This document shows, piece after piece, positions 6,677 to 44,381 of a stretch of 64,000 nucleotides of DNA (position 1 is the first letter of the stretch; every line of letters starts with the position of its first letter). A program made the position numbers and the translations under genes. The stretch is from NCBI RefSeq assembly GCF_024228675.1, contig NZ_CP100461.1, positions 2,167,398-2,231,397 of the forward strand, given 5' to 3'. The notes under the pieces were generated by a model. That model was not told the DNA's origin. It did not search any database and saw nothing but the letters and a program-made list of their open reading frames with translations. This stretch comes from Salinigranum marinum (lineage in GTDB: Archaea > Halobacteriota > Halobacteria > Halobacteriales > Haloferacaceae).

Positions 6677-8239
6677 ATGCTCCCGTCGACACGTCGCGGC
6701 ACCCTGTTGTACATCTCTGACCGCGTCGGTCACACCGAGACGTTTGTCGACATTCAGACAGACAGCGTGTTGACACGATCGGCGGCGACACTCGGCGCGG
6801 ACGGGGACGTTCCCGCGGCGGAGTGGGTCGTCGTCGACGCCGGGGTCCTCGACGCGACCCCGCCACCGTGGCTCGACTCACTCACCGGAGACGTGTACGT
6901 CCTCGCCCCGACACAGCTGTCCGTCCCCGACTGGGTGGACGACGCCGGCATCCCGGTACTCGACCCGACACTCGCGCGGCTGGTCGCGAGCGCGACGACG
7001 TCCGAAACCGGCGATACCGACGATGTTCGTGACGCCGACGCCAGCCGTGACGCCGACGCCAGCCGTGACGCCGACGCCACCGCCGCCCCGCCCGACGATA
7101 GCGCCGGTCCTCCCGACGCCACCGCCGCCGGACCGGCGGGTAACGGCTCCGCTCCCGACCCCCCCGACGCCGCGAGCACCGACGCCGCCGGTTCGGCGGC
7201 CGGAAGCTCGACCGCCGACCGCATCGACTCGCTGTCGGCGGTCCCGTTCCCCGTCGCCCTCCTCGACGGCGACGGCGTCGTCCGGCTCGTCAACCCCGCG
7301 TGGGAGGAGTTCGGCGTGGAGAACGAGCGCGATTCGGACGATGTCGACGTCGGCACGAGCTACTTCGACGCCTGCGAGCGGGGCGACGACAGGTTCTCGG
7401 CGGCGGCCGCCAAGGCCATCCGCCGCGTCATCGACGGCGAGAGCACCGGCGAGCGGGTCGAGTACCCCTGTCACGGCCAGCACGAGAAGCGATGGTTCTC
7501 GATGGGCGTCATCCCGCTCGAGGCCGATCCCGTCCGGGCGGCGGTCGTCCACTACGACGTCTCACACTACAAACAGCGGATCAACGTCCTCGACCGGGTC
7601 CTCCGGCACAACCTGCGGAACAAGGCGAACATCATCCTCGGACACGCGGCCGCGCTGGCGAGCGCGCGGGACGACGAGACGGCGACCGCGGCGACGACGA
7701 TCGGGGCGGCCGCGCGCGAACTGCTCTCGTTGAGCGAACAGGCGCGTCGCTACCGCGAGGTCAGCGCGGACGACCGCCCGACGACGCCCATCGACGTGGT
7801 GTCGGTCGTCTCGGAAGTGACCGAACGACTGAGTGACCGCCACCCGCGTGCGGTCATCGAGACGACGCTCCCCGCCGTGGCGGTCGTCCAGGGGACGCAG
7901 TCGCTCTCGCTGGTCGTCCACGAACTCGTCGAGAACGCGATCGTCCACAACGACTCACAGGACCCGTGGGTTCGGGTCGAAGTCGTCCGCGTCCACGAAG
8001 GGGGTGACGAACGGGTCTCCGTCCGCGTCGTCGACGACGGGCCGGGCATCCCCGAACAGGACCGCCGCCTCCTCACCGGCGGCCTGGAGGAACACCCGAT
8101 CCGTCACGGCTCCCAGCTCGGCGTCTGGGTCGTCAGTAGCCTCGTCACCTCGCTCGACGGGAACGTCACGGTCGAACCCCGCACGCCCCGCGGAAGCGTC
8201 GTCACCACGACGTTCCCGTGCGTGACCGTCGAGGACTGA
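6677..8239 (+). CDS. PAS-domain sensor histidine kinase
   Basis: A 520-residue soluble kinase. Residues 1-105 look like a receiver-like alpha/beta domain. An Ala/Asp/Pro-rich linker follows (110-180) with an 18-bp tandem repeat in its DNA, then a PAS domain (about 183-300). The histidine-kinase core has phospho-acceptor His311 in LDRVLRHNLRNK, the form common in haloarchaeal kinases. The ATP-binding domain shows the N-box (HELVENAIVHN), the G1 box (VVDDGPGIP) and a G2-like GSQLGVWVV. No membrane segment is visible, so it senses a cytoplasmic signal. A TATA-like element (AATAAATAG at 6651-6659) lies about 20 bases before the start. It converges on ppsA with a 9-base gap; no response regulator is adjacent. 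Confidence 0.88.
   Translation: MLPSTRRGTLLYISDRVGHTETFVDIQTDSVLTRSAATLGADGDVPAAEWVVVDAGVLDATPPPWLDSLTGDVYVLAPTQLSVPDWVDDAGIPVLDPTLARLVASATTSETGDTDDVRDADASRDADASRDADATAAPPDDSAGPPDATAAGPAGNGSAPDPPDAASTDAAGSAAGSSTADRIDSLSAVPFPVALLDGDGVVRLVNPAWEEFGVENERDSDDVDVGTSYFDACERGDDRFSAAAAKAIRRVIDGESTGERVEYPCHGQHEKRWFSMGVIPLEADPVRAAVVHYDVSHYKQRINVLDRVLRHNLRNKANIILGHAAALASARDDETATAATTIGAAARELLSLSEQARRYREVSADDRPTTPIDVVSVVSEVTERLSDRHPRAVIETTLPAVAVVQGTQSLSLVVHELVENAIVHNDSQDPWVRVEVVRVHEGGDERVSVRVVDDGPGIPEQDRRLLTGGLEEHPIRHGSQLGVWVVSSLVTSLDGNVTVEPRTPRGSVVTTTFPCVTVED
7031..7079 (+). repeat. 18-bp in-frame tandem repeat in kinase linker
   Basis: An 18-bp unit (GACGCCGACGCCAGCCGT) occurs at 7031-7048 and 7049-7066, and a third copy breaks off at 7079. 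It encodes the six-residue unit DADASR inside the disordered linker between the N-terminal domain and the PAS domain. Because the unit is a multiple of three, copy-number change would alter linker length without breaking the frame. Confidence 0.9.
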
Positions 8240-8247
8240 CGACTCTT

Positions 8248-10554
8248 TCAGCGCACGGAGTCGAGGAGGAGTTTCTGCTCGACCCGCTTGACCTCGTGTT
8301 GGACGTCGCGGACGGCGTCGATGTTCGCGGAGATCGACGAGATCCCGTGTTCGACGAGGAACTGCACCATCTTGGGCTTCGAGCCGGCCTGCCCGCAGAT
8401 GCTCGTGTCGACGCCGTGCTCGCGGCAGGTTTCGATCGTCGACCCGATGAGTTCCAGCACGGCCGGGTGGAGTTCGTCGTAGACGCTCGCGACGTTCTCG
8501 TTGTTGCGGTCGACGGCCAAGGTGTACTGGGTGAGGTCGTTCGTACCGAACGAAGCGAAGTCGATCCCCGCATGCGCCATCTCCTCGACCTGGAGCGCCG
8601 AGGCGGGCGTCTCGATCATCACGCCCCACTCGCGTTTGTCGGGGTCGATCCCCGCCTCCTTCATGTGTTTGCGGGCGCGGATGACGTCCTCGGCGTCGTT
8701 GACGAGGGGGAACATCACTTCGAGGTTGTCGTAGCCCATGTCGTACAGCCGCCGGAACGCCTCCAGTTCGAGCTTGAACACCCGTGGCTTCCCGAGCGAC
8801 CGCCGGATGCCGCGGTAGCCGAGCATCGGGTTGTGCTCGCGGGGGACGTCCTCGCCGCCCTGTAACTGGCGGAACTCGTCGGAGGGAGCGTCGAGCGTCC
8901 GGGCGCGGACAGGTCGGGGGTAGAACTCGTCGGCGACGGTCCGGACGCCCTCGATGATCTCGTCGACGTAGGCGCGTTCGCCGTTGTCGTCGATGAACCG
9001 CTCGGGGGTCTTGCCCAGCGAGAGCACCATGTGTTCGATCCGAAGGAGGCCGACGCCGTCCGCACCCGTCGCCGCGGCCCGCTCGGCGGCCTCGGGGATC
9101 GAGACGTTCACCTTCACCTCCGTGGCGGTCATCGGCTTCACTGGTGTTTTCGGCCGAGCGTCCTCGACCGGCTGGCGCTGTTTCTCCTTCGACTCGACGC
9201 CCTCACGGATCGTCCCCTTGTCGCCGTCGATAGTGATCGGCTGGCCGTCGTCGAGCTGGCGCGTGGCCGAGCCGCTCCCGACGACCGCCGGCACGCCGAG
9301 TTCCCGCGAGACGATGGCCGCGTGGGAAGTCATTCCGCCCTCGTCGGTGACGATGCCCGCGGCGCGCTTCATCGCCGGCACCATGTCGGGCATCGTCATC
9401 TCGGCGAGGATGATGTCCCCCTCCGCCACCTGATCGAGGTGGTCGAGCTTGGTGACGATACGGGCCGGACCGGAGGCGATTCCCGGGCTCGCCCCCAGGC
9501 CGCGCAGGAGCACCTCGCCGACCGCGGTCTCGCCGTCGCCGGCCGTGGCGTCGCCCGTCTCCCCGTCCGTGACCCCCGAGCCGACGTCCTCGACGTTCGA
9601 GACCGCGGTGTCGGAGATGGTCGTGATGGGGCGTGACTGGAGCATGAACACCTCGCCGTCGACGATGGCCCACTCGACGTCCTGCGGCTGGCCGTAGTGG
9701 GTCTCGACCTCCTCGCCGAGATCGACGAGCCGAGCGATCTCCTCGTCTGAGAGCACCCGCTCTTCGCGGCGGTCGTCGGGTACCTCGCGTTCGACGGTCT
9801 CGCCCGTCTCGGCGTCTTTGACGTGCATCAACTTCTTGTCCGCGACGGTCACGTCCTCGGTGCGCTGGGTCGCGCGGTTGACGACGTAGTTGTCGGGCGA
9901 GACAGCCCCGGAGACGACCGCTTCGCCGAGCCCCCACGCCGCCTCGATGATGATTCGCGGCTCGCCCGTCGAGGGGTGAGAGGTGAACATCACGCCCGAC
10001 TTGTCGGCGTCGACCATCCGCTGGACGACGACCGCGATGTCGACCGTGTCGTGGTCGAACCCCTTCTGGTTGCGGTAGTAGATCGCCCGCTGGGAGAACA
10101 GCGAGGCCCAGCACTCCTTGACGCGGTCGAGGAGGTCGTCCTCCCGAACGTTGAGGAACGTCTCCTGCTGGCCAGCGAAGGAGGCGTCCGGGAGGTCCTC
10201 CGCGGTCGCGGAGGAACGGACGGCGACGAACGCCGCCCCGTCGTCGATCGAGCGGTAGGCGTCGAGGACCTCCGTCTTGACGTCCTCGGGGAGCGGCGTC
10301 TCGACGATGAGTTCGTGGGCCCGCTCGTGTGCCCGCGAGAGCGCCTTCGAGTCCTCGGAGTCGACGTCGACCGCCGCGAACAGTTCGTCGTCGATTCCAG
10401 CGTCCTCGATGAACGTCCGGTAGGTTCCGGCGGTGACGACGAACCCTGGCGGAACCGGCAGGCCGGCCGCCGTGAGTTCGCCCAGAGAAGCCGCTTTCCC
10501 CCCCACTGTCGCTAGATCGTCGGACCGCACCTCGTCCAACCAGAGCACTGCCAT
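8248..10554 (-). CDS. ppsA: Phosphoenolpyruvate synthase
   Basis: Makes phosphoenolpyruvate, AMP and phosphate from pyruvate and ATP, the gluconeogenic bypass of pyruvate kinase. The 768-residue protein has the N-terminal ATP-grasp domain (GGKAASLGEL at 18-27, VRSSATAEDLPDASFAGQQ at 112-130), then an acidic low-complexity insertion (about 322-347), then the phospho-histidine swivelling domain GGMTSHAAIVSRELG with catalytic His411. A C-terminal PEP/pyruvate-binding barrel ends with ICGQAGSKP. The start ATG at 10554 is followed by AVLWLDEVRSDD, as expected for the family. Pyk lies about 5.5 kb away on the same strand, so the two opposing enzymes are separate units. Confidence 0.95.
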   Translation of the reverse strand: MAVLWLDEVRSDDLATVGGKAASLGELTAAGLPVPPGFVVTAGTYRTFIEDAGIDDELFAAVDVDSEDSKALSRAHERAHELIVETPLPEDVKTEVLDAYRSIDDGAAFVAVRSSATAEDLPDASFAGQQETFLNVREDDLLDRVKECWASLFSQRAIYYRNQKGFDHDTVDIAVVVQRMVDADKSGVMFTSHPSTGEPRIIIEAAWGLGEAVVSGAVSPDNYVVNRATQRTEDVTVADKKLMHVKDAETGETVEREVPDDRREERVLSDEEIARLVDLGEEVETHYGQPQDVEWAIVDGEVFMLQSRPITTISDTAVSNVEDVGSGVTDGETGDATAGDGETAVGEVLLRGLGASPGIASGPARIVTKLDHLDQVAEGDIILAEMTMPDMVPAMKRAAGIVTDEGGMTSHAAIVSRELGVPAVVGSGSATRQLDDGQPITIDGDKGTIREGVESKEKQRQPVEDARPKTPVKPMTATEVKVNVSIPEAAERAAATGADGVGLLRIEHMVLSLGKTPERFIDDNGERAYVDEIIEGVRTVADEFYPRPVRARTLDAPSDEFRQLQGGEDVPREHNPMLGYRGIRRSLGKPRVFKLELEAFRRLYDMGYDNLEVMFPLVNDAEDVIRARKHMKEAGIDPDKREWGVMIETPASALQVEEMAHAGIDFASFGTNDLTQYTLAVDRNNENVASVYDELHPAVLELIGSTIETCREHGVDTSICGQAGSKPKMVQFLVEHGISSISANIDAVRDVQHEVKRVEQKLLLDSVR

Positions 10555-14164: not shown

Positions 14165-14237
14165 CGACCGAACGAAGCGGAGCGAGTGAGGGAGCGAATC
14201 GGTTGGGGAGGGCGTGGCATAACTGCCCTGGCGATCG
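14165..14237. other. Intergenic repeat element, copy A
   Basis: A GC-rich stretch with GAG-rich runs followed by a core (14200-14237) that reads CGGTTGGGGAGGGCGTGGC and ends CTGCCCTGGCGATCG. The same core recurs at 38380-38418 with about 80 percent identity by eye. It lies between the phosphoesterase stop and the 28-bp array, and the array starts inside its last bases. It contains no gene. Confidence 0.55.
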
Positions 14238-14472
14238 ACGTGCACGAGTCCAGTCACACCGATCGACGTGCACGAGTCCAGTCACACCGATCGACGTGCA
14301 CGAGTCCAGTCACACCGATCGACGTGCACGAGTCCAGTCACACCGATCGACGTGCACGAGTCCAGTCACACCGATCGACGTGCACGAGTCCAGTCACACC
14401 GATCGACGTGCACGAGTCCAGTCACACCGATCGACGTGCACGAGTCCAGTCACACCGATCGACGTGCACGAG
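14233..14472. repeat. Perfect 28-bp tandem array, 8 full copies plus 16 bp
   Basis: Eight identical 28-base units run without interruption from 14233 to 14456, followed by the first 16 bases of a ninth (14457-14472). Each unit begins GATCGACGTGCACGAG and ends CAGTCACACC. It contains the 8-bp palindrome CGTGCACG. There are no spacers, so it is not a CRISPR array. The unit length is not a multiple of three, and open frames through it just cycle through 28 residues. The array ends 35 bases before the TATA-like element of the downstream gene. Confidence 0.95.
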
Positions 14473-17112: not shown

Positions 17113-17952
17113 TCAGATGAACACCTGTCCCTCGATCAGCCGCTGGGAGTCCGACACCGCCAGTGCCGACGCCGTCCGGCTGTTGCGGTAGACGGCGTAC
17201 ACCGCCACGACGCTCTCTAGCCGGTCCGGGTCCGCGACGATCGACTCGCGGACGTCGTCGGCAACCTCGACCTCGGCGTCGGCCGCCTCGCACAGTCCGT
17301 CGAGCGTCTCCGCGCGACGCGTCTCCCCCTCGTCGCCGCCGTCCTCGTCTCCGGTGTCGAACAGGTCGAGGTCGACGAGCGTCCCCGTGGGGTACACCTC
17401 GACGACGAACGGTCGGTCCGAACGGGGGTCCGTCATCGGCGGCACCCGAACGCTGTCGCTCAGCACGAGCGGCCTGAGGACGTCCCGGAGGCCGTAGAAC
17501 GTCGACGCGACGATGGGATCGGCGAACGGCGACATCGTGCTCAGCGGGCCGTCGGTCGCGCGGAACCGGGCGTCCGACGAGCTGTCCGTGCGCCGGACGC
17601 GCCGCTCGCACCGCCGACGGAGGTCGTCCGGGCTGTCATACCACGAAGGGAGGTCGCGGACGAACGCCGCCCAGCTCTCCTCGGCGACGACGCCCGCGGG
17701 GAGGCCGAACGGGAAGTCGAGGCCGACGGCGGCTGTCGACGGCAGGTCGGCGAGGAACGTCGTGAGTGTCGGCGTTCCGGGCGACGCCGCCGTCGTGTCG
17801 AACCACTCCTCGACCGGGGCACACCGGTCGACCGAGAGGGTCCCGTCGGTGACGACCCCCCGGGAGACCCACGTCCGTCCCCCCGACTCGCGTTCGTCAC
17901 CGCCGTAGACGATTCCGTAGACGACGGACGGTGGTGTGAAACTCTCACACAT
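17113..17952 (-). CDS. DUF429-like predicted nuclease
   Basis: A 279-residue protein (ATG at 17952; an upstream GTG/ATG would add seven residues). It shows the RNase-H-like pattern of DUF429 proteins: an N-terminal strand with VYGIVYGG, VGLDFPFGLP (about 85-94) with an acidic residue, and a conserved EVYPTGTL (about 190). Other members are proposed nucleases, but no substrate is known. A TTAAGA stretch upstream could be its TATA element. It is the last gene before the integrative element, and its start region faces the split zinc-finger gene. Confidence 0.65.
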   Translation of the reverse strand: MCESFTPPSVVYGIVYGGDERESGGRTWVSRGVVTDGTLSVDRCAPVEEWFDTTAASPGTPTLTTFLADLPSTAAVGLDFPFGLPAGVVAEESWAAFVRDLPSWYDSPDDLRRRCERRVRRTDSSSDARFRATDGPLSTMSPFADPIVASTFYGLRDVLRPLVLSDSVRVPPMTDPRSDRPFVVEVYPTGTLVDLDLFDTGDEDGGDEGETRRAETLDGLCEAADAEVEVADDVRESIVADPDRLESVVAVYAVYRNSRTASALAVSDSQRLIEGQVFI

Positions 17953-18132
17953 TATATCGTATTGATACATCACGGCGTCTTAACCGTACTGGCTCGGCCG
18001 TCCGGCCGTGACGGCGGATTCGGCGACGTCACCGCGACGGCGACACCCGGTGGCGGTCCCCGGTCCCGCCGTCGGTTTCCGCCGACCCGCCGCTCCGAAA
18101 AGCGTATCCGCCTCTCCCCGCAACCGGGAGCT

Positions 18133-18210
18133 ATGCCGAAGACAGAGGAGATCAGGTGCCGCAACGCGGACTGCGAGCTGGACATGTTCGAGAACCATTA
18201 CAACAGTTAA
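18133..18210 (+). pseudogene. 5' half of zinc-finger microprotein gene split by insertion
   Basis: The ATG at 18133 reads MPKTEEIRCRNADCELDMFE and then NHYNS and a stop. The first 23 residues match the intact protein at 19375-19533 at 20 of 23 positions. The part that should follow (TYDVPDDL...) is found 3.1 kb away at 21339-21434. The promoter motif TCCGAAAAG is 39 bases before the ATG, exactly as in the intact copy. The gene is GC-rich like the host DNA, so it is the resident copy, broken by insertion at about 18196-18202. The stub has lost the second metal-binding pair (CPYCG). Confidence 0.85.
18196..18202. repeat. Putative attL core
   Basis: CATTACA, within codons NHY of the split gene. 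Left of it the sequence matches the gene; right of it, it does not. It differs by one base from the candidate right core. Confidence 0.5.
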
Positions 18211-18427
18211 ATAAAGTGTGTATCAGATGCACACCTTGCTCTCAGTTCTTCGGTAATTAAATACAGGGAATATGAAGTAGTCTATCCTCTCTCGACGGAA
18301 AAGGCTCTCTACCATCTGTGTAGACGATATACCCTGAAGAAGTATGAATTCACATCACCAAGTGAAAAGTATCATATGTGAAATTCTAGTCAGCAAGTAC
18401 ATTAGCGAGAACGCCTCTGTTTCTGAT

Positions 18428-18895
18428 ATGAATGCAGACCGACAGCGGAGAAGAACCACACGAAGCCGGCGCAGTATAATGAAAATAGTTGGTTTAGGCA
18501 TATCTGTTGCAATCGCAGGGTGTTCAGGCGATGGAAGACCGGGCGATGGAGAAATAGACGACGGAGGAACAAACGGTAGCGAGTCGACGAACGAGCCCAA
18601 GACTGTAATTGAGATATATCTGAACACATTCTTTGGAGGTGACCCTACGGGATTCAACAAAATACGCCATTCGGATAGCCCGATTTCCGCAGTTGAAGAA
18701 GATCAGCAACTCATCGACATCAACGTCTCTATTGATAACGTAGTCTATATCGTGGAAGAAACTGACCGAATACTGGCTGAAGTCACAACGGTTTCAGATG
18801 GAGAAGATATGGAACCGGTCACTGCCACCCGTGAGATAGAATTACGGACCGAAGATGGACAGTGGAAGTTCTGGTACGATAGTGCACTTGACTAA
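18428..18895 (+). CDS. Tat-type lipoprotein, element cargo
   Basis: A 155-residue protein from the ATG at 18428 (MNADRQRRRTTRSRRS); a further upstream start would place 28 extra residues before the signal. The signal is Arg-rich (TRSRRSIMKI), with a hydrophobic run and the lipobox AIAGC (Cys at about 34). A Gly/Asp/Glu/Ser/Thr linker follows, then a domain of about 100 residues beginning TVIEIYLNTFFGGDP and ending GQWKFWYDSALD. That pattern recalls NTF2-like lipoproteins of haloarchaea, but the match is weak. Codon usage is AT-richer than the flanking genes, in keeping with its place inside the element. Its role is unknown. Confidence 0.65.
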   Translation: MNADRQRRRTTRSRRSIMKIVGLGISVAIAGCSGDGRPGDGEIDDGGTNGSESTNEPKTVIEIYLNTFFGGDPTGFNKIRHSDSPISAVEEDQQLIDINVSIDNVVYIVEETDRILAEVTTVSDGEDMEPVTATREIELRTEDGQWKFWYDSALD

Positions 18896-19374
18896 CTTGC
18901 TCTCCAAACATCAATTGTCTCGTTAATCAAACGAATCGGCATCACATACCCCCTCATTTTTCTATCATTTTGCTCACCTATGTCCATCAAGAGTCAATCA
19001 AGAGTCAATCAGTTATGCTATCATCAATGAATTTCAGTACCAAAACTTCATACAACGGATAGTCACTAGCACGGACATGGATAAAGGCGAACAGCGAGGA
19101 GACCCCCACGACGGTTTGTATTACCCGATGAATCCTTCAGCACCGCTCTGACCGGCTATTTTGAGCTGATATAAGGCCGAATACGGGGCTTATTCACTCG
19201 TCTTTTATATACAGATAGCCGATTGAGCCGACCTTTCGTGAGGGAAATCTGTGTGGCTTGGTGCTGTTTTTGAGGACTGAATCAGGATGGTGTGACCCCT
19301 ACCGGGTGTGGCATTGTAAACGCTACTCATCAGTCTCCGAAAAGAGTATCCGCTGGCCGCCAGTATGTTCACGT
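18896..19374. other. Gene-poor AT-rich stretch of the element
   Basis: No gene is convincing. It contains an 11-bp tandem repeat (AAGAGTCAATC at 18989-18999 and 19000-19010) and a 24-codon open frame at 19077-19151 (MDKGEQRGDPHDG...) that may be a small peptide or a gene fragment. The promoter region of the intact zinc-finger copy (from 19336) closes the stretch. Confidence 0.4.
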
Positions 19375-19533
19375 ATGCCTAAGACTGAGGAAATCAAGTG
19401 CCTCAACACCGACTGTGAGTTAGATATGTTCGAGAATCACTATACATATGATATCCCAGACGACCTCAGTATTGAACACCTACGTTGCCCATACTGCGGG
19501 GAGACAGATTATCTCGAACTAATTGAACTTTAG
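19375..19533 (+). CDS. Zinc-finger microprotein, intact copy carried by element
   Basis: A 52-residue protein (MPKTEEIKCLNTDCELDMFE...) with CLNTDC near the N-terminus and CPYCG near the C-terminus, which together can form a four-cysteine zinc site. It is the complete homologue of the host gene split at 18133/21434: 20 of 23 residues match the left half and 21 of 29 the right half. Its DNA is AT-richer than the host halves, so it is a diverged, imported copy rather than a recent duplicate. The motif TCCGAAAAG at 19336-19344 lies 39 bases before the ATG, as in the host copy. Its stop overlaps the integrase stop by three bases, tail to tail. It probably replaces the lost host function. Confidence 0.85.
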   Translation: MPKTEEIKCLNTDCELDMFENHYTYDIPDDLSIEHLRCPYCGETDYLELIEL

Positions 19534-20708
19534 TCGGGTTTCCAGCCACGTTCCATCGCTTGTTCGCGGGTCTCGTCCGGCTCTAAATGCTCTAAATCGT
19601 CTCCGTTCGTAATCCGGTTGTGGCAGCTACGGCAGACGTCAATGGTCTCTTCCGGAGTGTAGGAGATATGGTGAGTCTCTAATATTTTCCCGCGCTCGTT
19701 ACAGACCGCACAGATTTGCTCCTTGCTGGCCTGCCTTGTGTCGTAATCCACAGTTGGAGCACTAGCGTTGTATGCCTCGTCAACCTGTTCTGAGACGATA
19801 TCTGCGTAAATCTGAGTAGTTTGAATGTCTTCATGAGCCAAAATCTGCTGGAGGTCTTCAAGCGTACCCTTCTTCGGAGGCTGTAAGTAGTGGACACCGA
19901 AAGAGTGACGAAGTGAATGACTGGTCACTCTTCTCCGTTTATTTCCAGCCTTGTCTACGTATAGAACGTCCTGAATACCCGCTCTCTCGGCAGCGTTCCT
20001 AATTATCCGTGAGATATGGTTAGGGTGAATCTTCTCGTTCTTCTGCGTCACAAAGAGATATGAGCTATCAGCAGCGGTGATGTATGAGTCTCGGTAGTTA
20101 TTTTTCCACTCCGTGAGCAGCGGGTCGAGACTGGGCTGCCAGCGGACAGTAATGGTTTTGTCAGTCTTTGGAGAGTATACATCCACTTTCCGGTCATCCC
20201 AGTTCATCTCCTCTAACAGCACATTGGAAACTTCGCTGCGACGGCACGCAGTATAATACATGAACAAGATGATGCAGCGGTTCCTCACTATCGGCTGAGG
20301 AGCATTTTGAACGAGGTCTCTGACCTCATCAATACCGTCCTCTGGGTCTTTCTTCAACCAGACACGCTTCTGTTGTGCTTTTTCCTCTCGCTTGTTCTTT
20401 CGAGAGGCGAAGTCACCCAGTTTCACATCCTCGGTAGGGTTTTTATTCACTACACTATCCCTCTTCAGGAACTGGTACAGTACACGGAGAGTGTTAAAGC
20501 GATTTCTAATGGTATTGTTTGCGTAGTCGTCCTCCCCGAGCTGATACAGATAATCCTCTATCTCCTTCCAAGTTACTTCATCGACCTCAAGACCCTCTGA
20601 ATCAAGGAATTCTGTGTAGTCCCTAAGGTCAGTTCGCTTGTTTCGGACCGTACTTTCGGCACGCTTCTTCCGGTAGTGACGGAGGAAGTCCTCACCTTCT
20701 GGAATCAT
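19530..20708 (-). CDS. Tyrosine recombinase with C-terminal HNH-type domain
   Basis: A 392-residue site-specific recombinase that would integrate and excise the element. The N-terminal SAM-like core-binding domain spans about 1-100, and the catalytic domain about 125-310. Visible catalytic residues are Arg156 (TACRRSEVS), His264 and Arg267 (SHSLRHSFG), His292 (LAHEDIQTTQIY) and nucleophile Tyr301. After the catalytic domain, residues 330-370 form an HNH-like zinc module: Cys333/Cys336, His346-His347, Cys359, Cys362-His363. That addition is unusual for a phage- or plasmid-type integrase. Its start overlaps the stop of the upstream coiled-coil gene (ATGA at 20705-20708), so the two are co-translated. 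AT-rich codon usage marks it as imported. Confidence 0.9.
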   Translation of the reverse strand: MIPEGEDFLRHYRKKRAESTVRNKRTDLRDYTEFLDSEGLEVDEVTWKEIEDYLYQLGEDDYANNTIRNRFNTLRVLYQFLKRDSVVNKNPTEDVKLGDFASRKNKREEKAQQKRVWLKKDPEDGIDEVRDLVQNAPQPIVRNRCIILFMYYTACRRSEVSNVLLEEMNWDDRKVDVYSPKTDKTITVRWQPSLDPLLTEWKNNYRDSYITAADSSYLFVTQKNEKIHPNHISRIIRNAAERAGIQDVLYVDKAGNKRRRVTSHSLRHSFGVHYLQPPKKGTLEDLQQILAHEDIQTTQIYADIVSEQVDEAYNASAPTVDYDTRQASKEQICAVCNERGKILETHHISYTPEETIDVCRSCHNRITNGDDLEHLEPDETREQAMERGWKPD

Positions 20709-21139
20709 ATTCTCTCATCTTGCTTCAGATAATGTTTGTAGCCTTCCTCGCCGATGATTTCGTAGGTAGGGAGGAAATTAGATTTGAGATGCTGTATTGC
20801 GTCCTTGACTTCTCCTCGGTCGACTTCCAATTCTTGTGCTAGCCCGGAGAGGGTCGAAGGGGAGTCAGTATGGCTCAGTGCGTTATGTGCGTGCATCTCG
20901 TCAAGTTCGTCGGAGTTCATATCCGAGTTGGTAATCTCGGCACTATTCGCAGTCGGAGCTACAGGAATCGCATCTAGTACATCTTGAGCGAGTTCCTCGG
21001 TATCTCTACTGTCGTCCGCAAGGTTCGCATTGAGAGACCTGAGCTCCTGATTAACCTCTCGCATCTCGGCTTCCAGTCGTTCGACCTTTTTTATCACCTC
21101 TGGTGAAGGAGAATGGTCTCTTTCAAACTCGCCGGCCAT
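20705..21139 (-). CDS. Coiled-coil protein co-transcribed with integrase
   Basis: A 144-residue protein read from the ATG at 21139 (MAGEFERDHSPSP); the frame stays open upstream to a TTG at 21166. Residues about 18-50 are a heptad-rich coiled coil (VIKKVERLEAEMREVNQELR). The C-terminal 55 residues look like a small helical, winged-helix-like domain (TLSGLAQELEVDRGEVKDAI). Its stop overlaps the integrase start. The position fits an excisionase, accessory DNA-binding protein or integrase regulator; this is inference from context and the DNA-binding-like tail. Confidence 0.7.
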   Translation of the reverse strand: MAGEFERDHSPSPEVIKKVERLEAEMREVNQELRSLNANLADDSRDTEELAQDVLDAIPVAPTANSAEITNSDMNSDELDEMHAHNALSHTDSPSTLSGLAQELEVDRGEVKDAIQHLKSNFLPTYEIIGEEGYKHYLKQDERI

Positions 21140-21338
21140 CTCCTTATTAACCGCTGCTCTGAACAACTGCGATACGCTCTCGTACTTTACGCTGTTCTCC
21201 GCGTACTACTCAATTTCTTCTTTTTTCTCGCCATCTGTTACGATAGGTATTCGAGCCACGGTAGAAGCGCTCTTTCACCAAGCGAATATAAAAATAGGTG
21301 TCGACTACACATTAAATGTGTACTAAAATATAGACGTC

Positions 21339-21345
21339 CACTACA
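21339..21345. repeat. Putative attR core
   Basis: CACTACA, in the HYT codons of the right half of the split gene. An eleven-base sequence that contains it (GTCCACTACAC, 21337-21347) has a near copy just inside the element (GTCGACTACAC, ending at 21310), and a CACATT/AATGTG inverted repeat sits between them, as in integrase arm sites. Confidence 0.5.
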
Positions 21346-21434
21346 CGTACGACGTCCCCGACGATCTCATCCTCGACGACCTTCGGTGTCCGTACTGTGG
21401 GGAGACCCAGTCGCTGGAGCGCATCGAACTCTGA
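21339..21434 (+). pseudogene. 3' half of split zinc-finger microprotein gene
   Basis: The frame reads HYTYDVPDDLILDDLRCPYCG and ends GETQSLERIEL at the stop 21432-21434. There is no start codon; an in-frame stop (TAA) lies just upstream at the element edge. It is the missing second half of the gene that starts at 18133, and it is GC-rich like the host. Together the two halves give a 52-residue protein. Confidence 0.85.
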
Positions 21435-21514: not shown

Positions 21515-21961
21515 ATGACAGGAATTCGCGAGATCGGAGAGTCGGTCGCTAACACCGTGCTCGAACGGGTCGGTCGCGGGATGAGTCGGGTCCAAGAGCG
21601 AAAGCCCCTCCCGCACGACCTCCTCGAGAGCGACGGCGCCTATCTGATCGTCTTCGACACGCCGGGCGTCCAGCGCTCGGACGTCCAAGTCCGCTTTCTC
21701 GACGGCGAGGTGCAGGTCAGGGTCGACCGCTTCCGGGAGTTCTACGAGGACTTCGAGATGCGCTTTCCCGGGCGCGGGCTCTCGCTCGACGGCCAGGTGA
21801 CGCTCCCTGACGACGCCGCCGTCGACGCCGGCGGTGCCTCGGCGACGCTCGCCGACAACGGCACCCTCCGCATCCAGATCCCCAAGGACGACCGGGCGAC
21901 CGACGTGGAAGTCGTCGACGAGGAAGGCGACGGAGACGCCGAAGACGCCGGCGAGTCGTAG
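21515..21961 (+). CDS. Small heat-shock protein (Hsp20/alpha-crystallin)
   Basis: A 148-residue protein starting MTGIREIGESVANTVLERVG. A longer frame upstream runs back through the split gene and is rejected. Residues 45-130 form the alpha-crystallin domain: strands around YLIVFDTPGVQRSDVQVRFL, then LSLDGQVTLPDDAAVD, then the terminal strand motif GTLRIQIPKDD. The last 20 residues are acidic. Members hold unfolding proteins in oligomers without ATP. It lies about 80 bases after the 3' remnant of the split gene. Confidence 0.85.
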   Translation: MTGIREIGESVANTVLERVGRGMSRVQERKPLPHDLLESDGAYLIVFDTPGVQRSDVQVRFLDGEVQVRVDRFREFYEDFEMRFPGRGLSLDGQVTLPDDAAVDAGGASATLADNGTLRIQIPKDDRATDVEVVDEEGDGDAEDAGES

Positions 21962-22008: not shown

Positions 22009-22776
22009 TCAGCGGTAGTCGGCGGGCAAGAGCGACGCGAACTCCTTCGATTCGAGCCACGCACAGAGCGCGTCGAGATCCGCGACCGCACCGTCGAGCA
22101 GTCGCTCGCCCGCCGCGGCGGAACCCTCGGAGGGGACGCCCACGACGCCGTTGTCCGAGAAATCCGTGGTGTCGTCCAGCACCATCGCGCCGGCGACGTG
22201 GACGCCCCACACGTCGCCCGCGCCGGCGTCGGCGTCGTCGATCGCGCCCTCGTCGACGAGGTCGGGCGCGAGCGTCCGGACGACGCTCGTCTCCGCCGCA
22301 CCCGCGTGACCGACGTGGGACCGACCGAACAGTTCCTCGTGGTCGGCGTCGCGGTTCGACCACCAGTCCCAGGGGACGACGAACGCCGTCCCGTCGGCGC
22401 GAAGCGCCCGGGCGACCCGGCGGAGCGCGTCGTCGTTCCCGCCGTGGCCGTTCACGACGACGACCTTCCGGAGGCCGTGAGCGGCGAGGCTCTCGACGGT
22501 CTCTCGGACGTAGGCGGCGAACGTGTCGGGCGAGACCGACAGCGTCCCCGGGAACTGGCGATGGTGGCCGCTCACACCGACGGGAACCGGTGGGAGGACG
22601 ACACAGCCCTCGCGGTCGAGTCGGGTGGCGACGGCCGTGGCGGCCCGCGTGTCGGTTCCGAGCGGGAGGTGCGGGCCGTGCTGTTCGGTCGCGCCGGTCG
22701 GAAGGAGGGCGATCTCCGCGTCGGCGAGAAGCGCGGCGGCGTCGGCCGTCGAGGCGTCCGCGAGCGGTGTGCTCAT
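22009..22776 (-). CDS. Creatininase-family amidohydrolase (ArfB-like)
   Basis: A 255-residue metal-dependent amidohydrolase. The metal-binding motifs of the family are visible: TEQHGPHLPLGTD (about 30-42) and VVVNGHGGND (about 105-114), with HVGHAGAAETS later. In archaea, members of this family include ArfB, which deformylates an intermediate of F420/riboflavin synthesis. The assignment to ArfB rests on family resemblance only; a creatininase-like or MftE-like role is possible. It converges on Hsp20 and is about 90 bases downstream of the next gene, which has LLM-like features. Confidence 0.8.
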   Translation of the reverse strand: MSTPLADASTADAAALLADAEIALLPTGATEQHGPHLPLGTDTRAATAVATRLDREGCVVLPPVPVGVSGHHRQFPGTLSVSPDTFAAYVRETVESLAAHGLRKVVVVNGHGGNDDALRRVARALRADGTAFVVPWDWWSNRDADHEELFGRSHVGHAGAAETSVVRTLAPDLVDEGAIDDADAGAGDVWGVHVAGAMVLDDTTDFSDNGVVGVPSEGSAAAGERLLDGAVADLDALCAWLESKEFASLLPADYR

Positions 22777-22865
22777 ACTGGTCGCTCGACGGGGAGCGAT
22801 TTACTGCTTGGCGTCGCGGAACGGGGCGAAGCGGCGTGGTGAAGCGAGCCGCCGGTGGTGGTCAG

Positions 22866-23648
22866 TCAGCCGCAGAACTCGTCGACGCCGCGGGCGGGGT
22901 AGCCGACGACCACGTCGACGCCGGCGTCTTTGAGCGCTCGGATCTGGTCGGCCACCTGGTCGGGGCCGCCGACGAGCGCGTAGTCGCGGACGGCCGCCGA
23001 GAGTACCTCGCGGGCACGGCCCGTCGCGCCGGCGTCCGTGGCTGCGTCGTCGGGGAGCGCACGGGCGACGGGACGGCGACGGGCGGCGTACGCCCCCACC
23101 GCGTCGAGCGCGGCGTCCTCGTCGTCGGAGAGCACCGTCGGCGCGTACACCGCCACCCGGCCGTCGAACCCCGCGGCCCGGAGCGCGCGCACGTCACGAA
23201 CCGTCGAGCGCGAGAGGAGTTCGTACTGCGTCCCGCCGGCGGCCAGCGCGAGCCGTTCGATGCCCTCGGTGCCGACCCACGCGTCCGGCACCCGGTCGCG
23301 CGCGGCGCGGAGGCGAGGGGCGACCGCTCGCCGGCGTTCCTCGTCGGAGAGATACGCGCCGTGGCCGGCCACGAGGACGCGCCGGACCGCAGACGGCACC
23401 GTCTCCCACAGCGAGTCGTCGCCGAGCGGGTCGAAGCCGTCGGCACGGACCGGCGTAGTGAGCCGGAGTCGCTTCTCGGCGGCGACCTCGGCCAGTACGT
23501 CGGGGTCGGGGAGGTGGTCGCGCCCCTCGTAGTCGACGGCAACGGTCGGAAGCGGGACGTCGAGCGCGCGGCGGACGTCACACTCGGCGGGCTTCAGCGC
23601 GACGGCGTCGAGGCCCGTTCGTGCGACGGCACGCTCACCGGTCAACAC
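22866..23648 (-). CDS. LLM-like (luciferase-like) haloarchaeal protein
   Basis: A 260-residue protein with a GTG start at 23648. The C-terminus (DYALVGGPDQVADQIRAL, then KDAGVDVVVGYP) matches the end of luciferase-like F420/FMN-dependent oxidoreductases, where it closes the TIM barrel. The N-terminal half is less typical and the usual coenzyme motifs are not obvious. It lies upstream of the creatininase-family gene on the same strand, about 90 bases away; if that gene is ArfB, an F420 link would make sense, but this is only a context argument. Confidence 0.6.
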   Translation of the reverse strand: MLTGERAVARTGLDAVALKPAECDVRRALDVPLPTVAVDYEGRDHLPDPDVLAEVAAEKRLRLTTPVRADGFDPLGDDSLWETVPSAVRRVLVAGHGAYLSDEERRRAVAPRLRAARDRVPDAWVGTEGIERLALAAGGTQYELLSRSTVRDVRALRAAGFDGRVAVYAPTVLSDDEDAALDAVGAYAARRRPVARALPDDAATDAGATGRAREVLSAAVRDYALVGGPDQVADQIRALKDAGVDVVVGYPARGVDEFCG

Positions 23649-43916: not shown

Positions 43917-44381
43917 ATGACGCTTCCGATCGATCCGTCCGTTCTCAGCGGCGACGACATCGGTGAACACCGCACGACGCTCCACATGGAGCACGAGGAG
44001 GCGATCGAACACGTCCGCGACGCGTTCAAGCGGGCGGGGTTCGGCACCGCGGTGGAGTTTTCCGTCTCCGACCTGCTGCACGAGAAGATCGGAGTCGACC
44101 GCGACCCGTACTACGTCCTCGGCGCGTGCAGCCCCGAGGTCGCGAACCGGGCGCTCGACGCCAGCGACGACGAACTCGGCGGGCTGATGCCGTGTAACGT
44201 CATCGTCCGGCAGACCGAACCCGGCGTGCAGGAGGTGTACCACGTCAGCATCATGCGCATCGCCCGGCTCGTCGGGATGGCCCCCGACGACGAGGAGATG
44301 GCCGACATCGTCGCCACCACGGGCGAGATGGTCGAGGACGCGTGGTCGAACCTCGACGCGACCGTGGAAGCCGACGACTGA
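43917..44381 (+). CDS. DUF302-family protein
   Basis: A 154-residue cytoplasmic protein from the ATG at 43917 (MTLPIDPSVLSGDDIGEHRT). The core EHEEAIEHVRDAFKRAGFGT and VGVDRDPYYVLGACSPEVAN, NRALDASDDELGGLMPCNVI are typical of DUF302, often linked with metal or sulfur handling; no function is proven. A TATA-like CCATACCTTTTC lies about 30 bases before the ATG. An extended upstream frame is Arg/Ser/Thr-rich and rejected. It converges on the TatA-like gene. Confidence 0.75.
   Translation: MTLPIDPSVLSGDDIGEHRTTLHMEHEEAIEHVRDAFKRAGFGTAVEFSVSDLLHEKIGVDRDPYYVLGACSPEVANRALDASDDELGGLMPCNVIVRQTEPGVQEVYHVSIMRIARLVGMAPDDEEMADIVATTGEMVEDAWSNLDATVEADD

Follow-up and report, generated by a model that had tools for sequence, protein, structure and literature searches.

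How does an integrating element come to lie in the middle of a conserved gene, and what becomes of the function of that gene? Integrating elements are generally thought to prefer tRNA genes or the ends of genes because these can be restored. In the stretch analysed here (64,000 nucleotides of Salinigranum marinum DNA, hereafter the window), a 3143-bp element (3.14 kb) splits a gene of the DUF7559 family (PF24440), a small haloarchaeal zinc-finger gene coding for 52 aa, at codon 22-24. The reading that we consider likely is that a small haloarchaeal element with a tyrosine recombinase inserted within this gene and compensates with a replacement copy; excision, expression and rescue are inferred.

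The split gene and its junctions

The N-terminal half of the host gene (18133..18202, + strand) comprises 23 codons, after which the stop codon is supplied by the element, and aligns without gaps to the uninterrupted gene of the congeners. The C-terminal half, including its own stop codon (21346..21434, + strand), was identified by the genome search, the junction and the alignment to congeners. The host halves join at CA(T/C)TACA to give a single frame of 52 codons, MPKTEEIRCRNADCELDMFENHYTYDVPDDLILDDLRCPYCGETQSLERIEL, which matches the DUF7559 profile (PF24440) over its full length (1.7e-29, positions 1-52 of 52). A 7-bp repeat, CAYTACA, is found at both ends, as CATTACA at the left att site (18196..18202), which is unbroken in the empty sites, and as CACTACA at the right one (21339..21345). 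Between them, the integrated element (18203..21345, 3143 bp) has a GC content of 0.469 (47%), against 0.70 on either side.

A genome-wide search with the copy of DUF7559 carried by the element found exactly three places, namely the carried copy itself and the two host halves. The halves were matched at E values of 1.2e-9 and 2.9e-12 and there were no other matches in the genome, so that their likeness to the carried copy is not due to chance. The two host halves and the single carried copy, as first described, are thus real. The promoter-like motif TCCGAAAAG starts exactly 39 bases ahead of the ATG both in the host gene (18094..18102, + strand) and in the carried copy (19336..19344, + strand), where it is identical.

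The locus is flanked by a DUF429 gene (17113..17949, - strand), a marker of synteny in the congener G350, and by an hsp20-family gene (21515..21961, + strand), which adjoins DUF7559 in many Halobacteria and also served as a synteny marker. The only tRNA gene in the window, a tRNA-Ala at 43979, lies 22 kb from the element, which does not meet the criterion of integration at a tRNA gene that characterizes SNJ2-type elements; that of an att repeat at both ends with an empty site in relatives is met. Elsewhere in the window (14232-14472), a 28-bp unit, CGATCGACGTGCACGAGTCCAGTCACAC, is repeated perfectly in tandem (8.6 copies, 100% identity) directly before a gene similar to 2-oxoacid dehydrogenase E1.

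Empty sites and distribution of the target gene

DUF7559 is uninterrupted in three congeners (G350, G323 and G423). In G350 the sequence on the left of the insertion, up to 18202, and that on its right, starting at 21339, match neighbouring stretches that overlap by the 7-bp core; in G323 the gene is likewise unbroken with hsp20 next to it, and the empty site of G423 reads GAGAACCACTACACGTACGACG. All three have a C at the core position where the left junction of the window has a T, which probably came from the element side or from a mismatch resolved in this way, as far as can be inferred.

The first-pass annotation had described the joining of the halves into one 52-codon frame and the motif exactly 39 bases before each ATG, and both descriptions held. 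Its claim of an insertion into a protein-coding gene also held, given the empty sites in congeners and the break in base composition. That the insertion is recent held only in part, as this fits the undecayed halves but the event remains undated. Halves existing as separate genes in genomes without the insert would have refuted the claim, and this is not what G350, G323 and G423 show.

The target is nearly ubiquitous. DUF7559 was found in 384 of 391 sampled genomes of Halobacteria and in 168 of 170 from the family of the host, nearly always as a single copy. Seven sampled Halobacteria genomes gave no match, and it is unproven that the gene is essential for the host. Both sampled genomes of genus g53 (G093 and G347) are without a DUF7559 match, yet G347 holds one of the nearest relatives of the integrase.

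Among about 425 genomes (some genomes of other families were outside the sample), a split DUF7559 was seen only in the window genome and no second element targeting this gene was found, so that the specificity of the integrase for the DUF7559 site rests on one event. No DUF7559 was detected in phage records and viral contigs. Three matches on plasmids were considered as possible elements and rejected, being ordinary genes on large replicons. In the five genomes with two copies (G046, G254, G258, G287 and G322), no relative of the integrase or of the accessory gene lay beside the copies in the regions retrieved.

Gene content of the element

The first gene (18344..18895, + strand) is a cargo ORF for a putative lipoprotein, with a lipobox-like signal (..AGC) and no confident family. 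The first-pass annotation had proposed an integrase pair further along, and this part failed: there is one integrase and one DNA-binding-like accessory gene broken by a TAG. The integrase (19530..20708, - strand) is a tyrosine recombinase of 392 aa with SAM-like domains and a PF00589 domain (8e-27). Its catalytic set is complete (R156, K181, H264, R267, H292 and Y301) and invariant in four members of the family. Over the C-terminal ~60 residues (fused domain at 325-392) there is a Cys/His domain that recalls HNH domains but has no confident family match. This HNH-like domain is fused to the integrase at 19533-19735 (- strand) of the window and occurs as separate 71-aa ORFs in loci L112 and L118 (genomes G037 and G048).

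The accessory gene (about 20705..21259, - strand) has an RHH-like start, a coiled coil and a winged-helix-like C terminus, and is interrupted by an in-frame TAG at 21206-21208. These fold labels were read from the sequence, since no Pfam family could be assigned with confidence. Among the nearest relatives, those for which sufficient sequence is present have in this position an ORF of 170-213 aa of similar make-up, often ending in ..YYKE. It is possible, by inference from the TAG, that this copy of the element is impaired or disabled. Single-sequence searches of genome and viral contigs found no close relative of the integrase (best about 40% identity), and an alignment-based search returned mostly the same loci again.

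The carried copy

The complete carried copy of DUF7559 (19375..19533, + strand, 52 aa) is the only intact copy in the genome; its end overlaps the convergent end of the integrase gene by 4 bases. It matches PF24440 over positions 1-52 of 52 (4.9e-28) and is identical to the joined host gene at 41 of 52 aa and 115 of 159 nt (stop included), with 20/23 identical residues against the N-terminal host half. Between the two genes about 30 of 30 synonymous sites have changed, compared with about 12 of 126 nonsynonymous ones; the dS of the host gene against its congeners is 0.5-0.9. Synonymous sites are thus saturated with the protein kept, and the carried copy is under strong purifying selection. Third codon positions have a GC content of 0.50 in this copy and of 0.79-0.88 in the hosts, which together with the synonymous saturation indicates a copy that has long resided in low-GC surroundings and is maintained by selection at the protein level.

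In a tree, the carried copy groups with the congener G423, inside the genus (support 95/86), and 47 of 52 residues are identical to G423; this tree has only 52 columns and has to be read with care. The upstream motif of the carried copy, TCCGAAAAGnGTATCCGC, resembles that of the host gene, G350 and G423, has a variant in G323 and is unlike the other genera inspected; likewise, TCCGAAAAG itself is present in G350 and G423 and has a variant in G323. The grouping with G423 and the genus-type upstream motif make it likely that gene and upstream region were captured from within the genus, within the limits of a short tree and one motif. Of the explanations that the first-pass annotation had left open, past gene capture held as the origin of the carried copy (which groups with G423) and a built-in rescue is supported by the sole intact copy, the purifying selection and the recurrence of the design, functional rescue remaining an inference.

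Related elements that split other genes

We screened 96 further loci around relatives of the integrase for unbroken genes inside an element that resemble two fragments on its outside, with the window as positive control, a design that detects only mid-gene insertions that have a spare copy. An earlier low-stringency self-comparison was discarded for its many composition artefacts.

Three elements (G146, G037 and G048) split a creatininase-family gene (PF02633, 3.5e-72) at one identical codon. In G146 the C half (8159-8461) and the N half (22529-22891, oriented locus coordinates) lie around a 14-kb element whose intact copy is 67% and 64% identical to the two halves. In G037 and G048 the N-terminal fragment stops at the same codon (..VEW|) and is followed by the accessory gene, the integrase, the separate 71-aa Cys/His ORF and an intact 256-aa creatininase copy. 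The accessory gene of the G048 element is intact. The missing C halves are elsewhere, on another contig in G048 and 830 kb off in G037. The two halves in G037 are at C1:1549486 and C1:719763 (L161 and L164) of one chromosome, possibly as if a rearrangement had run through the element. The carried copies of G037 and G048 are 89% identical in hosts from different families, which indicates that the spare travels with the element; the N fragments of the hosts themselves are only 79% and 68% like the query, and the nearest intact genes to the carried copies belong to a third group (86-89%).

In G246, a 4-kb element has split a gene for an AlkA-like DNA glycosylase (HhH-GPD, PF00730, 3e-15) at GTTCCTCATGT. 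Its genes run from the accessory gene through the integrase to, further on, an unbroken copy of 192 aa, whose identity to the two halves is 52% and 72%. The design of inserting into a gene and carrying that same gene is thus found in at least three unrelated targets: DUF7559, the creatininase family and the AlkA-like glycosylase.

Some genomes of genus g37 with high creatininase identity were considered as additional elements and rejected, as they have full-length genes without split partners. Nor do we claim a recoding of carried copies that would protect them from the integrase; this was seen for DUF7559 and AlkA but not for the creatininase of G146. An intact creatininase-family paralogue lies in the window itself (22009-22776), 0.6 kb from the DUF7559 element and belonging to the family split by the three related elements; this proximity is likely a coincidence.

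Other related integrases are found at gene ends. In G131, G145 and a second element of G246 the repeat lies over the start codon of a gene for an RHH-like protein of 58-60 aa, and in G365 that of a different gene. In these four genomes (L109, L114, L117 and L105 for G246, G131, G145 and G365) the 10-13-bp repeat on the start codon parts the host gene from its promoter. A 19-bp repeat in G327 lies over the stop-codon end of a gene, and G291 has a similar one of 21 bp. The screen of inner against outer fragments found no duplicated target in these start- and stop-codon elements. Insertion in the middle of a gene may be the sole case that calls for a spare, which would fit these relatives; mid-gene insertions without a spare are outside the reach of the screen.

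Alternative explanations

The carried gene might be ordinary cargo, its co-occurrence with a broken target being coincidental and involving no rescue. The copy does seem derived from a host of this genus and the element also bears an unrelated cargo ORF; against this, the coincidence would have to have happened for three unrelated targets, with the gene broken and the gene carried being the same in every element, and the carried copy is under purifying selection, leaving incidental capture very unlikely. Another view, proposed for the Vibrio recA element (PMC4405046), is that the carried version is selected as a superior or mismatched allele, with the resident copy broken so that the two do not interfere, and not as compensation for the damage done by insertion. 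The strong divergence of carried creatininase copies from the host fragments (64-80% identity) would agree with this. However, the targets are functionally unrelated (a small zinc finger, a creatininase family and a base-excision glycosylase) and there is no sign of new activities in the carried copies, and we give allele replacement very little credit too.

A cleave-and-rescue arrangement, in which imprecise loss leaves the host without the gene and so enforces retention, and in which the HNH-like domain might cut the empty target, has in its favour that the Cys/His domain is fused or adjacent in G000, G037 and G048 and that the carried DUF7559 differs from the host at the core. However, the domain has no confident HNH family match, none was noted in the G246 integrase, and the carried copy of G146 keeps the core GAGTGGATGTGG unaltered, so that recoding is not systematic; we regard this explanation as unlikely. 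Finally, an assembly chimera or a duplicated pseudogene in place of an insertion is supported only by the estimated contamination of the genome, which is 4%. The locus lies inside a contig of more than two megabases, and the short repeat, the in-frame rejoining and the empty sites in three congeners leave almost no room for this possibility.

A model for insertion with a carried replacement

The reading that we favour, insertion with compensation, would proceed as follows. The integrase is predicted to recombine a circular element, whose attP would contain ..GACGTCCAYTACAACAGTTAA.., with a short core within conserved codons of DUF7559, cutting the gene in two. The insertion and the empty sites are established, and the action of the integrase at this core is inferred; the shared core being of only 7 bp with one mismatch counts against the mechanism. 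The full DUF7559 gene of the element and the upstream motif in front of it, taken up in the distant past from a member of the genus, would stand in for the lost function. The host could then tolerate an insertion into a gene that is almost universal, and such a target would offer an attachment site in nearly every potential host. That the carried copy is the sole intact one, that it is under purifying selection and that the design recurs in relatives with two other, unrelated targets are established and strengthen the rescue reading; expression of the carried copy and rescue are inferred. The broken accessory gene may now limit mobility, which is also an inference.

In a bolder reading, which we hold to be possible but less likely than not, the specificity of the integrase and a complete spare of its target would form one moving module that lets the family switch among near-universal protein genes. 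The spare would remove the cost of insertion and also hold the host hostage, because a host that lost the element imprecisely would be left with no functional copy.

Related archaeal integrases use the middle of conserved protein genes, apparently paying with a full spare, in at least three unrelated targets. The switch of an integrase to a new target and the acquisition of the spare that goes with it become questions that can be tested. The design also opens a route by which horizontal transfer can swap core genes silently and distort gene trees, and is a natural parallel to engineered insert-and-rescue designs.

Comparison with known systems

At the domain level (no alignment to IntSNJ2), the SNJ2-type integrases (PMC8371274) are similar in being halobacterial tyrosine recombinases with a SAM-like N-domain and PF00589, next to genes with coiled-coil and HTH-type features. 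They differ in having two helper proteins and a target at the end of a tRNA gene, whereas here there is one helper and the targets are protein-coding. The same review of archaeal integrases gives protein-coding targets, without replacement copies in the relevant section. Thaumarchaeal elements (PMC6563490) also integrate into protein genes, including a zinc-finger gene, through short att sites, but at 3'-distal positions, and no complete replacement copy is described in the relevant passages. Phage 21 and e14 integrate into icd of Escherichia coli, and SXT integrates into prfC, all with compensation of a conserved coding gene; unlike here, those elements resupply only the missing end and not a separate full gene.

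The closest parallel is bacterial. In Vibrio cholerae S24, recA is interrupted by a genomic island that brings a divergent but functional recA of its own, which according to the authors of the study offsets the harm (PMC4405046, where a thymidylate synthase example from C. difficile is also cited), and V. parahaemolyticus 090-96 has a similar recA mobile element, or RME (PMC4334540). The Vibrio RME is like the DUF7559 element in interrupting a conserved gene within its frame (recA, 1065 bp, at bp 494), in bringing a divergent full-length copy together with a phage-type integrase and in having a lower GC content; its empty site and circle have been demonstrated. The DUF7559 element meets the recA-element criterion of a mid-gene insertion in a conserved gene with a complete divergent inner copy, but not that of recA as target. 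The RME is 32.8 kb long in V. cholerae, is bounded by 9-bp inverted repeats and has recA as its sole target, whereas the haloarchaeal elements are of 3-14 kb, have short direct-repeat cores and, for a single integrase family, use no fewer than three targets unrelated to one another. Within the literature searched, the principle is therefore known from a bacterial precedent, and what is new is its presence in archaea and in several targets per integrase family.
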